Below are positions 1,918 to 22,700 of a DNA stretch of 64,000 bases, piece after piece; the stretch's first letter is position 1; each line of letters begins with the position of its first letter. This DNA comes from Asterochloris sp. CNOR1. Lineage: Eukaryota > Chlorophyta > Trebouxiophyceae > Trebouxiales > Trebouxiaceae. The translations under genes were made by a program, and so were the position numbers. Under the pieces are notes generated by a model. It was not told the origin of the DNA and ran no database searches. It saw nothing but the letters and a program-made list of their open reading frames with translations. The stretch is taken from the NCBI GenBank assembly GCA_963969365.1, contig OZ017755.1, forward strand, positions 930,001-994,000, given 5' to 3'.

Positions 1918-3793
1918 GTCAAAGCGCAAGGCTCGTGCACCCAAAGCGGTTGACAGTGCTTCCGAAGTGACAGTGGACGAGGCTGGCCCACCAGCCAAGC
2001 AGGTGATGGCAGTGACTGTTGCACCCCTGACATATGGTGATAGCTTCATGTCCGAATGGCCCCTTTGAGGCTGGTCTGCCAGCCCAGCAGGTAGGGCAAT
2101 AGTAGTGCACACACTGGCACGATTGGGAAGCACCAAAGGACCCCCAGGTGAGGCTGGCAAAGGCGACAAGCGACCGACTCCACAGCACAAGTTCATGCAG
2201 CCGGCAGAAGGGTTGCAAGTGGACAGCGAACCTTGGACTTGTCCGCAGGCCGCCAAGGTGCCCAGAGCCACCACAGCCAGGCGCAAGTCCACCACAACCA
2301 AGGCAGCAGCAGGCGACACCGCGACAGCAGGCGCCACCAAGACAAAGGCCGCAGCGGGTGGCACAGCCAAGACCAAGGCGGCGGCTGGGAAGCGAAAGCC
2401 TCGCGCCACCAAGGCTGCCGCTACTGCAGTGGCCGAGGCACCTGCTGTGCAGGCTTCAGCGGGGTCTGAGGCACAGCCCAAGGCGGCTGCTGAGACCTCG
2501 CCGTGAGTGTGAAGGGTGATGCTGCTGAGCCATGTGGTGCCATGGCTTGACCTTTGAAAGCTGGAGGGAAAGCCAGATGCACCGCCCAGGGCGGCTGCCC
2601 GAGACGTCATGGTGGCCTTGTCTCCAAGTGTGCCTTGCAGGTAGCATGCTGCTGAGTTCTTGCCCTGGCAGAGAGCTAGGCCCTGCCATGGTTGTGGCAT
2701 GCACACGCCACCCACTGCACCCAGCCCCTCCCCGAGGACTTTCTCTGCACGGGTATGCTGATGAGCTGGCCTCCCCTGGCGGAGCTTTGAGCTTTGCTTA
2801 TGCGGAACAGTATGCCTTCGGCTCAGCTTCACTGGTCTGCAGGGGTTGTGATGATGAGCTGGTCTCCCGGCAGAGGGACGCCCGCGAGTTCATCTCGCCC
2901 TGGCTGACAGCTAAGGCGGCCGGCCCTGAGGTAGGCACAGCTGACACACTGAGGCACCTGTGGGAGCAGGATGCAGGGCTGCTTGCCGACCAGCAGGAGC
3001 GGGCCCTCAAGCGGCTGCTCTCTCAGGGGTGGCAGTTGTGCTTCGAGGCCCATGTTGGGCTCAAGGGTATCTATTTTTTGCATGGCTGTGGGACATGTCT
3101 GCCGTGGGACAAGTCTGCAGTGCAGGCCGCACCCTTGAAGAGGCTGCAGTCTCAGGGCTTGCAGGTGTGCTATAGAGCCTGGCATTGCACTGAGGGAAGC
3201 TAGACAATGCTCCGTAGAACAGCAGCATCGTGCCCTCAAGCGGGTGCTGTCCAGGCTCTTCTGGGCTTCTTTGCCTTGTGGGACTTGCGCTCAGGACTTG
3301 GGGCACCTATCTGTCAGGATAACTGATTTTGTTCCTTAGCGCAGGTGGGTGCATGGGACATTGCTGCTTTGAGGCGTGGCATACCTCCGCTGTAACTGTT
3401 GACCTGGCAGGCCCCCACAGCAATGTGTGCACGCTGCCAATCGCTGTCCTGTCCACATCTCAGTAATCTTGGTGATCAATGGCCTCAGCCACCCTGCACA
3501 GAAGGCAAATCTCCCAGCATTTTCAAGCAATCTTGCCACCTCTGCAGGTTGCTGCGGCTCGTGTTGCTGCTGATAACAGTGAGGTAGATCCTGACAAGTC
3601 AGAGGAGGGGACCAGTGGGTTGGAGGATACTGTGGCTGCACCAACAGCATCTGCAGGCAGTGAGGAAGCTGGCACTGCAGAGGACAGCAGCCAGAGCAAA
3701 TTCAGCCCGACAGAGACTCTGGAGGATGGCAGCATGATGTTTTCAACTGAGGCGCTCAGCACCATGAGCTTTGAGGAGATCCTCACCCCCTAG
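1918..3793 (+). CDS. Unrecognised Ala/Lys-rich basic protein (multi-exon, 5' end unclear)
   Basis: Supported exons are about 1918-2001 (basic, starts near KSKRKARAPK, donor after CAG), about 2250-2504 (Ala/Lys/Thr-rich, like a histone-H1 tail, with repeated KAAAG-type blocks), an open stretch about 2876-3030 (starts DAREFISPWL, includes QQERALKRLL) and the last exon about 3549-3793 (acidic and Ser-rich, stop TAG at 3791). The TGA that seems to close the second exon overlaps a consensus donor (gtgagt), so I read it as a splice site. The boundary between the third and last exons does not close in phase, so an exon is missing or misplaced. Basic N-terminal repeats suggest a nucleic-acid or chromatin-binding protein, but no domain is recognised. 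It is convergent with MTR3, with 148 bases between stops. Confidence 0.45.
1979..2180 (+). repeat. Degenerate tandem copies of an exon end plus donor site
   Basis: The exon end beginning gaggctggcc at 1979, followed by its donor, recurs at about 2067 (again followed by caggtaggg) and in part at about 2149. Spacing is 88 and 82 bases. The copies lie in the downstream intron and are decayed. Confidence 0.6.
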
Positions 3794-3941
3794 ACATGCC
3801 CCAAAAGCCCACAATGACACAGTGCTCTGCTTTTTTGCACAGTTTTGGTGTTTGACGAGAAGACCTTGGTGATGCTGAGTTGACTCTGTCCACTGCGAGA
3901 CTACTGAAAGCATGCATTTTTCACAGACACCCGCACCAGCA

Positions 3942-16700: not shown

Positions 16701-19700
16701 ACAGCAGATGACGAGGGTGGCCCTGAAGGCAGCAAATCATGCTGTTCTGCGTGACGCCCCACAAGCAAGACAAAGCAGATGTCATGGTGATCCCGCAGGC
16801 AGACTCTGCAGCTGATCAGCTCGCTGCCAAAGCAGGCAGTCACAGCAGATGCCAAGGCTGCATGAAGGCAGTGTGACATGCTGCTCAGTCAGGGCCTTCA
16901 GAGGGACATGCAGCACACCAACAGGGGACTTCCAGGCAGCAGGCAGAGGGAGCTGCCAACTTTCAAGCACCCCATGGGGAAGATAAGGGAAGACAGCCAG
17001 AATGCAAAGGGGCACCTACAGGCAGTGAGCATTGGTGCACTCAGCACAGCCACTGAGCTGCCATCTGGAGGGCTGGGAGCCATATGCATTGCCATGCGAA
17101 CTGCCTTGGCAGGGGACAGGCTCACCTCGAGAGGATTAGACCATCGCACGTTGTGGAGGTCGGGTCTGTCAAAACAGGTGCAGGGTTGCTCAAGATGAGC
17201 GCGAGCACCTCCACCGTCTTGCCCAGACCCATCTGCAGGCAGCAGTGGGATGGTGTGGCTCCGCTCGGTGAAGACCTGCATGTGTGTGGGCACTTGACCA
17301 AGACCCAGCTGCAGGCAGCAAAGGACAGGGTGGTGTCCAGTCGCTGCAACAGTATGCATGCGGAGCTGGTATGTACTGAGCTGCACATGTGGGGCACTTG
17401 ACCCAGAGTGTCAACAGCCGCAAGCACCAATGGGGCTGCTGTTTGGCTGGCTGCTGCAGATCATGACTGCAAACCCATCTGCCCCTTGGGGACACTGCCA
17501 GCAATCTTGGCGAATCACGCATGCTGGGCTACTCCTGGCTGAGCTGCTTAGTTATTGTAGCCTGGTGTGAAAATCCCAGAAAGCAGCTCCACTGGAGCCA
17601 CCCCGCGGTGCAGGCACAGCCAGCACCATGAGCAGGGCTGCTGAGGTGCCCAACCTCCACATTGCCCTGCTGAAGCCAGGAAGCCACTTCAGGGTTGCAC
17701 TGGGAGCTTCAGTGTTAAGGACACAGGGCGGCTTCTGTTGCCAGTCTTAGCCATGAGCAGAACACACCTCCTCTGCAAGGAACCCTCCCCAGGGCAGCGC
17801 TGGGACGTCCAGTGCCATCTGCCTCAGCACCGGGCTGTACCAGAAGGACAGCCCTGCAGTGTTGGTCAGCTTCTGCCACAGATGGCGCCGAAAACCACCC
17901 TCGCCCTCCTCAGCATCCAGCATGAAGTGCAAGCTCTGCCGCTGGTACGGCCTCAGCTGCACGGTCAAGCCCTGCAGGTGCACTGGCACCATCGTCAGTC
18001 CACCATGCATGCAGCAAGTGTTCAGGCCTCTGCTGGCTAGTTGAGCCCTGCACATCCAATCACAGTGTGTCTGTCAAGCAATGGTCCGCGGTCAGCATGG
18101 CCTGCAGACCCTGTTGCAGGCATGTGTCAGCTGCTATACCAGACGATTTGCTTGCCATGGGTGGAGCATGAGGCAGTGTCTCCCTGATTGATGACGCCCC
18201 ACACGCCTGACAAAGTGACACACTGCATGTCTTTGCGCTGCAGCTGTATAAATTCCCAAGGGTCAGCTCAGAGAATGCTGGGCACTGCTGCTGGACAGGC
18301 AGGTCGCAGGCTGCAGGCGACACACAGCCCACCTCAGGCTGGGAAGCCTCAGACCTCTCCTTGCATTCCAGCATCTTCATCATGCCCACCAGGTTGCGGT
18401 CCTCCACCTTGTCCTTCCTCTCCCAGAGCCTGTAGTGTTCCTGCAGAAGGGCAACACAGAACTGGAGCATTGAAATTCCCCTGCACAGCACAATATGGAC
18501 CTTGATGACCTCCAGACACCACGCGAGGGCCCTGCATGAAGCTCTCCCAATCAGTTGGGGCCAATGTGCTTGTTACAATGACTGCAAGGAGGGGAGCTGA
18601 GTTCACTGCTGTCTGACAGAGAGAGAAGAGAGAGATGCAACTAGTCACTGCACAGGGGCAGCTCTGTGAGGCAAAAGAGATGCTCTCCCTTCATCTGAGC
18701 ACCATACAGGCTCATGAGCAAGTGGTTTGCAATGATCCCAACCTTACCGTCATCTCCTTGAAGCCTGCAGTGCCCTCACATAGGAACATGAGGGTGTCGT
18801 GCAGGGCAAAGAAGGGTCCATCATAGAGTCCGTGATAGCGCGACTTCTTGATACTGGGCCACTCTGAGGGATCTGAGAATACTGCTCGGTAACAGAGGCC
18901 ATCCTGCACGTGCTTCCACGCATACACCTGCACATTAGGGGAGCGCAGTATGTGTCTGGCCAGTCGGCAACACTGCACAGGTGCAGAGGCTGTTTTGGAG
19001 GTGCTGGCATACACATGCCTGCACCTCATGACAGCTGGAAATGCAGCGCCAAGTCCTGCGGGAGCATGCGGCAGCCTATGCCATGGAAAGACCAGCACAA
19101 CATGGTGGCTGATTCAAATGCACATCCGGCAGCTGATGCCAAGGAACCAGGCTTGGACCACGCTGTGCAGGGAGCCTAAAACGCAGGCACTGTTGCCTGA
19201 CGTTCGTGAATGGATCTGGCCAAGTGCTGCCAGCATCATGCAGGGAACAAGCAGTGGGGCCAGCAGGGTCAGACAACAGCACAGCGTGCATGCTGCCACT
19301 CTATGACGTAGCTGGTGCAGGACTGGGGAAAACAAAGCAGATTGGCCTGGCCTGAGCACAGAGGTGGAGGCCAGTCTTGGCTTGCGGCAGCAGCTCTCAG
19401 CCAGTTCAGTGCCTCAGATCACTGAAAGCCCCATGCCAAATCATGTTGCCCTTTCGCTCATATGGCTATGCAGGCAGGCTCCATGCCAAAGCACACCTGA
19501 GGCAACAACACAGAAGCAGCCTATCCAAAAACAACAGCTGACAGTGAAACACCAGGGTGCTGCTATGCTTGCTGTCTGCTGCCCTAGCAAGCCCAATGCT
19601 GAGGCGGCACAACAAGGGTGCAGCGGCTCAAGCAAAACACCCCAACCTGGATGACAAGGGTGCCCCTTCGCTCGCTGCCAGCCGCGCTGGCAGGCTCAAT

Positions 19701-22700
19701 GCCGAGGCGCAGCTTGATCATTGGCTTCTCAGCTCCAGCGCTGGACCCAGCCTTCAAGGACGCCCTGGCTGCAAGTCGTAGCTCATCCATGATGCTGACA
19801 GGGCGCCGCTGCTGCTGAGACTTAGCAAGATCGTATGCTGCTCTGTCCTCAAGAGCCTTCTGGGACTCTGCACACCACACAGCCGCACATCCATGAAAGC
19901 CATCTCTGTGAGAAGCACTGCTGCTGGGACTTGACTATGCCGCCCCCGCATGGACAGGGTCTCATAGAAAGGAGGCAGTGCATTCCCTGCAGCTCATGAT
20001 GCTTATGATGTTATAGCGAGCTCACAAACATGGGGTGCAAGTGTCACACTACCTAGGCACCAGACCGAATGGTATCTGGAAGCTGTATGCGGCTGAACTT
20101 GGAGAGGTAAGGGCAATCTTAGCAATTTGCTTTGGCCTGTAACAAAGGAGGCTCTTTCGGCCACTTCTTCTGGTATACACTACACTGCAGCTTTGAGCTT
20201 GGCCCCTGACAGGTGGCTTCATCATGACGAAGGGCCAGCAGGGCAGGCTGGTTCACCTGTCACCACTTGGTGCAACAATGTGGGGTGTAGCCTGGGCCCC
20301 AAGCTTGACACAGGGACCTTCTAGAAGACAGTCAGTGCAAGCTTGCTGCCTCACCTGCCACCAGTTCAGCCGCAACGCTGGACGGCTCTGGCTTTGTACA
20401 CACACAGGGTTTCACCTCACAGAGCAACCCCCTTGACACACCTGTACACGCGAGCTGCCTCGCTTGCCACCAGCTTAGGCACCATGCTGGGTGCAGCTCC
20501 AAGCTTGCCCAGCTTTCCAGCTCAAAAGGTCACCCTTGTGACACAGCATACAACAAATGGGCTCACCTGCCACCAACTCTGGCATCATGCTGGGATGCAG
20601 CTGTGCATGTACTGAGTTTCTGAAGTAATGAGCTATCACACTGACATAGCTGGTGCAGGCAGGCTGCGTCGCCTGCCATCAGCTCATGCACCATGCCGTG
20701 TACTGCTCCAAGCTTGGCCAACTCTCCAGCTCACAGGTTCCTCCCCTTGACACAACCGGCAGGAACTAGGCTCACGTGTCACCAGCTCCGGCACCACGCT
20801 GGGGTGCAGCTCTGGGGTGGCCCACTTGCTCAGATCATAGCGCTCCAGCTGATCAGCACGGTCCCACTGTGCCACCATGAACAGTATCTCATCTTTGACA
20901 CACCAGATGGTGTCTTGCACGTAGCTGGCGCCCATGAAGCCGGGATTGAGCGACTGAGACCGGGCCTGCAGGGCACAGCCAGCTGCTGTCAGCACGACGC
21001 TGACAGCATACAAGCTGGCATGATGGTGCAAGCACCTGGCAGCCAATCTGAAAAATCTAGGGAGCAGCTGCTGAGCAGCAGGCGAGTTACTCTGCATGGC
21101 AATGATGCGGGGCGCCTGCAAGCCATATACAATGACCTGAGGGGCAGCTGCCAGGCCATAGGATGTTGAGCAAGATCTTCTGCACATGCACCAGGCACTA
21201 GCATTCTACCCTCTGTACGTGTGTGCTAAGCAACAGCTCTGTACCTCCTGCACAGTGATGAAGCGCTCCTGCTGCCGCAGCTCTGTGCCCTGAAGGCTGC
21301 GGCCATGTATGCTGATCCTTCCAAGCTGGAAAGAGGAAGGCTCTGCTGCCTGTGACTCCTTCTTCAGCAGAGGTCTGATGGCCTCCAAGTAGAGCCGCTT
21401 CACCTCTGCGAACAGCGGCTAAGCTCAGTGAGACGCAGGACATGCAGGCACAGCAAGCCTGCTTGAAGCCTTGATGGGCCCCAGGTAGACTCGCTTCACC
21501 TTTGCAAAAAGCGGCAGCTCTTGATATGCATGCTTTGATCAAACATCGCATGCCGTACTGCCCAAAAATAAGCTGAAAAGCTTCACTAAGCCCCTTTGCT
21601 CCACTGAGCCATTTCACTGCTGTAACGGCGGAGCCTAATGCGAGGCGGACATTGCAATCATGACAGGATAGGCAGTGCAGGCAGCAACCTTGGCTGTAGG
21701 CCTCTTGCAGCTGCAGTGGGAGCTTTTGATCCCACAGCCTTAACCCTGCTCAGCAGTGAGATGATCTCCGAACCTCCGAAAAACACAAGCTGCTGCTTGG
21801 GCTGCCTTACTGGGCCCATTGGGACACTCATGCTGCATGTTTGAGCACGATGGCAGGGGTGCGAACCTTGGTTGGCCCCAACACCTCCATCTGCCAAGGC
21901 GTTGTCCCGCAGCGGCACCACCACTGGCCAGCCGACCCTGGCAGGCAAGTTGTGCTCGTACCACGACGCAGCAGAGGCAGCCTTCCTCTGCAGCAGGGAC
22001 AATGGATGGAGTGCAGGGCATGGCCTGAGCTGTGCACAGATGCTGGATGTCAGCTGGAGCAGCTCAGCAGCAAACCTGAGTTGACTCCACATAGTATCGC
22101 AGTGGTCCAGCAGCATGCACCTGCTGCATTACACTTAGCTTTGCGGCAAGGTCTGCGCAGTACACAAACTAAGCATGCCAAGCATGGTGCACAGCCCCTG
22201 CATAACAAGTTGGGAAGGCAGCATCACGCCACACCCACCTCTGACCAGATGACAGCACAGATCGGCCTGGATGAAGGGTGCTGGATCGCTGGCACAGTGA
22301 AGGCCATGTAGCGCATGGTGTCAGTGACCCTCCATCCTTCCCCAGGTACGTCAGTGTCAGCAGGCACGCTGTAGCAGCAGGCCGTGACATATGTGATGAG
22401 GCAGCATCTGACAGCAGGCCAAAGGACCCGCCAAGAGCAGTGCAACATGACAACCTTTGAGACAATGATGGCGCATGCAGGCCCAAGCGTCTAGCACATA
22501 AGGCAAGGCTGTTTCTGAGAGCCTGCAGCCCTAGACAGCAGCCTGCAGTTCCTCGCTTGGATGCCTTTGGAAAGCCAGCATGCATGGGGCAAAAAATGCA
22601 CCGGCCTGGTGTGCGCGCTCTCTGCAGCTCCTTACACTGGTAGGCCGTGGTTATTGCAGAAGGGGATCAGTCGGATGTCCTCAGGCAGCTCCAGCAATGT

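Follow-up and report, generated by a model that had tools for sequence, protein, structure and literature searches.

An intron of a putative SNF2/RING helicase gene of an Asterochloris alga contains five decayed copies of the 3′ end of the adjoining exon together with its splice donor, arranged head-to-tail on the minus strand. The best explanation, to which we assign a probability of about 0.8, is tandem duplication across the exon-intron junction, followed by amplification and decay inside an intron that is spliced. The analysis was performed on a 64,000-nt stretch of Asterochloris sp. CNOR1 (GenBank assembly GCA_963969365.1, contig OZ017755.1, 930,001-994,000), referred to below as the window; genome searches covered its own assembly (56.38 Mb, 21 contigs).

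Gene context and architecture of the array

Exon pieces of the gene matched the Asterochloris gene model eukprot Astpho2 9589 (P0001; two proteins listed). The best seven pieces of P0001 run along the minus strand from 25891 to 22635, five of them at 95-100% identity and the remaining two, which extend into introns, at 55-59%; the spliced alignment of P0001 comprises seven exons and covers 412 of 412 residues. Among 12 protein matches were proteins of Myrmecia bisecta (P0003, P0004) and Trebouxia (P0005, P0006), which align to additional downstream exons of that strand, the alignments of P0003-P0005 extending to about 11000. These proteins carry PF00176 (SNF2), and RING-type accessions are present in P0003-P0005; the gene is accordingly assigned as a putative SNF2/RING helicase, with the array-bearing intron in its N-terminal part. 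A Pfam search of 15 proteins (exon pieces and single ORFs) returned no family, two sets of gene pieces matched no PDB sequence, and Rfam yielded nothing at gathering threshold within 19800-21000. A paralogue search for this part of the gene listed four places, of which two belong to the gene and the other two are weak matches (E 0.33 and 5.0).

The JGI model Astpho2 9589 stops at 22636 (minus strand), where the P0003 and P0005 alignments splice onward from a donor leading into the SNF2 part; the model is probably truncated through reading into the intron. Partial copies of the 5′ exons are found on the minus strand at 31844-31683, 31410-31333, 31193-31053 and 26618-26511, with protein identities to P0001 of 65, 54, 85 and 69%, respectively, and are probably the decayed remains of a segmental duplication that lies upstream of the gene.

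The features of the array, in window coordinates, are as follows.

20776..20968, minus strand: exon with the repeated 3′ end; 3′ end from the P0005 alignment, exon conserved in the related ORFs P0015-P0018
19868..20775, minus strand: array-holding intron, 908 nt, from the P0005 alignment
19647..19867, minus strand: next exon; start at 19867 common to the P0003, P0004 and P0005 alignments
20669..20736, minus strand: copy 1; junction CAG|GCGACG at 20673, no GT
20539..20605, minus strand: copy 2; junction CAG|GTGAGC at 20567, donor score 12.9
20431..20524, minus strand: copy 3; junction CAA|GCGAGG at 20464, no GT
20350..20391, minus strand: copy 4; junction CAG|GTGAGG at 20355, donor score 12.1
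20242..20296, minus strand: copy 5; junction CAG|GTGAAC at 20257, donor score 8.1
20642..20814, minus strand: first member of a 209-nt repeat; exon end and most of copy 1
20434..20605, minus strand: second member of the 209-nt repeat; copy 2 and most of copy 3

The 5′ end of the repeated exon was placed at 20968 by eye, but at 20892 in the P0005 alignment (exon 20892-20776). Of the 20 introns counted for this gene (median 352), the array-holding one is the longest, and without the five ~105-nt units it would be about 380 nt long, near the gene's median. A unit consists of the exon end, the donor and the start of the intron, and this exon end with its donor and flank matches copy 2 over 67 nt without a gap. 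Over the unit, the copies are 39-76% identical to one another, copies 1 and 3 being the closest, and 42-66% identical to the exon unit; copy 3 has a one-base deletion in its exon-like part. The last exon-like base lies at 20776 in the exon and at 20673, 20567, 20464, 20355 and 20257 in the successive copies, which gives junction spacings of 103, 106, 103, 109 and 98 nt from the exon to copy 5. These values are close to the near-constant spacing given in an earlier sequence-only reading of this DNA (104, 110, 102, 107, 101). A higher-order repeat of 209 nt, which that reading had not noted, is superimposed on this period, with 20814-20642 matching 20605-20434 at 75% over 173 nt; copies 2 and 3 together resemble a duplicated exon end plus copy 1.

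Significance of the copies

Gapped local scores of the 81-nt exon edge against the intron were compared with two nulls, namely 500 dinucleotide shuffles of the intron and 137 other pieces of the window (both strands). The five copies scored 57, 53.5, 34.5, 34 and 26. Among the shuffles, no fifth-best score exceeded 20.0 (mean 15.8, sd 1.0) and no best score exceeded 33.5; the corresponding maxima among the window pieces were 18.5 and 29.5. Both nulls are exceeded by the two top-scoring copies and by the five as a set; the fifth copy taken singly (26) is not above the best single null score. The presence of exon-end and donor copies in the intron is therefore confirmed, and, as a set, the five stand above every shuffled control of the kind the sequence-only reading had proposed. 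A candidate sixth copy at 20205-20186 scored 18.5, within the null, and was rejected. In the tandem-repeat search proposed in that reading, Tandem Repeats Finder at a minimum score of 30 had no entry at 20244-20815.

Donor sites and spliced alignments

The scoring matrix for donors was derived from 19 further donors in this gene; these score 5.5-12.9 themselves (median 10.3), and one of them is supported solely by P0001. The exon's own donor, CAC|GTGAGC, scores 7.7 and is outscored by the donors of copies 2, 4 and 5 (12.9, 12.1 and 8.1). The proposed ladder of decoy donors holds for these three copies, which keep GT; it does not hold for copies 1 and 3, which have GC.

The P0005 alignment is the only one to use the exon's own donor. 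In the P0003 spliced alignment this donor is skipped and small exons are placed at copies 2 and 4, and in that of P0004 it is skipped in favor of a small exon at copy 2; since spliced-alignment scoring rewards strong donors, these placements are scoring optima and not proof of use. They nevertheless weaken any firm claim that splicing relies on the exon's own donor and no other. The exon end is conserved at the protein level between the window and its relatives, which have V-A-G where the window has V-T-R; the relatives' residues are consistent with GCAG|GT at that position.

The array in related algae

An exon-into-intron ORF used as the query retrieved four proteins, all from ENA, among 42 candidates at E up to 1. 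P0015 is 99% identical to the window ORF and has the same arrangement. P0016, P0017 and P0018 are 71, 69 and 64% identical, have the exon in common and read on into the intron. For their intronic parts, the strongest match in the window is the flank of copy 2 followed by copy 3 (E 9.5e-18, 6.6e-13 and 2.0e-29, respectively), and the exon's own flank gives a weaker one (E 8.8e-5, 3.2e-6 and 1.6e-10); copy 4 is recognizable in P0018 and perhaps in P0016. Because copy 2 flank and copy 3 outmatch the exon's own flank, the array appears to be one 209-nt dimer shorter in all three diverged ORFs, a comparison made at the protein level on ENA sequences, in which short-read assembly could shorten a repeat. 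The comparison with relatives suggested in the sequence-only reading thus yielded, for proteins, a shared array of different length. The 25% divergence of the dimers would favor an old duplication with later loss in the relatives over a gain in the window lineage. No related loci were found in viral_contigs or genome_contigs.

A second repeat of the gene also has a counterpart among relatives: the 5′ edge of exon 23471-23232 has a copy in an intron stretch, which is matched in turn by the related ORF P0002 (41.7%, E 2e-17).

Local duplications in the gene and the genome

A scan of the window identified 31 clusters with a local direct match, a few of them simple CTG repeats. The exon-edge array has the most copies per query, with four extra copies versus at most two elsewhere in the window. 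Within the gene, 10 same-strand pairs were found at E up to 0.01, every one at a lag of at most 313 nt, together with one inverted pair about 3 kb apart. Other exon edges have single copies in adjoining introns, on donor as well as acceptor sides:

23649-23589 and 23466-23407, minus strand: matching pair
21520-21472 and 21426-21376, minus strand: matching pair
19709-19654 and 19606-19551, minus strand: matching pair
14623-14581 and 14449-14406, minus strand: matching pair
13089-13058 and 12957-12926, minus strand: matching pair

A preference for exon boundaries was not significant in the gene (6 of 8 pairs versus 3.97 by rotation, 533/5000 as high), nor was there a strong preference for pairing exonic with non-exonic sequence (6 of 8 versus 3.31, 229/5000 as high); the eight pairs are taken as independent and the exon list is partly uncertain.

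To place the array in the context of this genome, 18 stretches of 10 kb (180 kb) were sampled from it. A local direct match was present for 278 of 4441 80-mers, compared with 29 of 4441 for inverted matches (19 of the 29 in one stretch) and 6 of 4459 in shuffled sequence, and direct matches occurred in 16 of the 18 stretches. Self-BLAST of the stretches gave 79 direct pairs and 2 inverted ones. Lags of 60-140 nt accounted for 37 of the direct pairs, and the lower limit near 60 nt may reflect the detection threshold; at least three extra copies were counted in 12 of 78 clusters in the 180 kb. With local direct duplications this common in the sampled genome, the array is less special than supposed.

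Donor-like sites (score at least 10) numbered 19 in repeated segments versus 7.9 expected (0/1000 shifts as high), and acceptor-like sites 82 versus 58.6 (9/1000 as high); by cluster, donor-like sites occurred in 12 of 45 versus 6.8 (38/2000 as high). Because the two members of a pair are not independent of each other, and because GC content is higher in repeated segments (59.4% versus 57.0%), this splice-site enrichment is suggestive only.

Two of the sampled stretches have peculiarities of their own. The stretch at G000:C6:500001-510000 (L011) has the most local inverted matches (19 of 248 80-mers), perhaps a hairpin-like element. In another (L017, positions 1941-3920, G000:C12), two repeat groups about 1 kb apart, each with ~100-nt spacing, are perhaps a larger duplication of an existing array.

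Origin of the array and alternative explanations

Under the preferred explanation, a segment of ~105 nt comprising the exon 3′ end, the donor and the first intron bases would have been tandemly duplicated, and the array would then have grown, at least once by a 209-nt dimer. The copies would have decayed within the intron while splicing continued between the outer exons. Exonic duplications would be purged by selection, and those spanning a junction or lying within an intron would be tolerated because splicing removes them. Selection would hold the exonic copy, so that exon-edge pairs stay recognizable longest, and this, we propose, is why the intron seems to echo the exon. Once two copies are present, unequal exchange or slippage could change their number; the dimer and the shorter arrays of the relatives suggest such change. 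The initial source may have been a small tandem duplication at staggered breaks, with unequal exchange or slippage completing the likely mutational route. The exon's own donor would presumably have stayed in use, and the copies are presumably without function. Head-to-tail order, constant period, the 209-nt unit and the different copy number in relatives all support the scenario of tandem duplication and decay put forward in the sequence-only reading, as does the lack of another genomic place in a search of limited sensitivity.

Chance similarity arising from composition might be suspected in a region rich in CAG/CTG words, but it is refuted by the five-copy set, which beats the 500 shuffles and the 137 window pieces, and a related array is present in other algae; we give it practically no credence. 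Repeated units inside an intron are likewise what a dispersed repeat or an Introner-like element could leave. A genome search with 631-nt and 166-nt queries at E up to 10 returned only the window's own place, with a sensitivity limited in that the 75% neighboring copies were not listed separately, so that diverged copies elsewhere could be missed. The unit moreover matches the coding sequence of the adjacent exon, and we regard a dispersed origin, a refuting outcome in the sequence-only reading, as very unlikely.

It is also conceivable that the copies act as alternative mini-exons or donors, forming a splicing switch, possibly one in which copy 2 takes over from the exon's own, weakened donor. 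Copies 2 and 4 carry strong donors, the P0003 and P0004 alignments place small exons at copy 2 (and 4), and, by eye, an exon ending in G, as the exon-like parts of copies 2, 4 and 5 do, would encode the junction residue E of Myrmecia, where the window's own end would encode Q. However, reading through from the exon meets a stop at 20686, inside copy 1, the exon's own end is conserved in protein between the window and its relatives, copies 1 and 3 have lost GT, and the deletion in copy 3 also speaks against such a role, which we therefore rate as unlikely. An intron that arose when an exonic AGGT segment was tandemly duplicated, as in the Rogers model, and that was lengthened by further duplications would fit the AG|GT junctions of copies 2, 4 and 5, and this type of mechanism is established elsewhere (PMC3443670, which treats tandem duplication as an intron source, and PMC4974935). 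Yet no significant copy lies near the acceptor (19868|19867), the last one ending at ~20250, about 380-390 nt before it, and the sequence just upstream of the copy junctions is 40-47% pyrimidine, a poor acceptor. The array adjoins the donor end of the intron, and an old acceptor-side copy could have decayed beyond recognition; such a birth of the intron nevertheless seems improbable.

Comparison with known systems

In the potato RdRp gene, a boundary-crossing tandem duplication with a new intron was shown (PMC4974935). As in that case, the duplication described here spans an exon-intron boundary and carries the splice site along; the potato case, in contrast, concerns the acceptor side, one duplication and a new intron, whereas the Asterochloris array concerns the donor side, several copies and intron growth, and is old and common to related algae. 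Multiple tandem 24-bp AGGT duplications in the fission yeast genes SPOG_01682 and SOCG_00815 (as described in PMC4974935) similarly involve an intron across several tandem duplicates, but their units are exonic and short and create splice sites, while the ~105-nt Asterochloris unit spans the exon-intron junction. Breaks with complementary overhangs yield small tandem duplications upon break induction in mammalian cells (PMC8355091); this short head-to-tail class of mutation is a plausible source here, although the link from mammalian cells to an Asterochloris alga is one we infer. Introners insert copies into many genes (PMC9860276) and share with the array a repeated sequence tied to introns; here, by contrast, there is one local array, with no second place found by a search of limited sensitivity. 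In PMC6652019, arrays of 141-bp units are reported at a virus-derived region and nowhere else in that genome; the word "tandem" occurs 0 times in the main text. A literature search limited to titles and abstract openings found no description of arrays such as the present one.

Implications for intron growth

Set against these systems, the array is a donor-side, multi-copy duplication common to related algae, by which an intron was lengthened rather than demonstrably created. Intron lengthening without transposons is seldom visible, and in this case the sequence itself reveals where the added length came from; the array may represent one ordinary way for introns to grow. More tentatively, and with well below even odds in our estimation, tandem duplications of ~100 nt, often across splice junctions, could be a genome-wide and long-running means of intron growth in Asterochloris, leaving behind series of spare splice sites to which the role of working donor could pass. 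In the present gene, the exon itself has a weak donor, and a near-perfect one survives in a copy 209 nt downstream. Given RNA and annotated genomes for a number of Asterochloris species, one could measure how often such duplications arise, how large they are and how they act on splice-site choice. Even if the array is wholly neutral, it would still offer a clean natural record of how splice sites are duplicated and decay.
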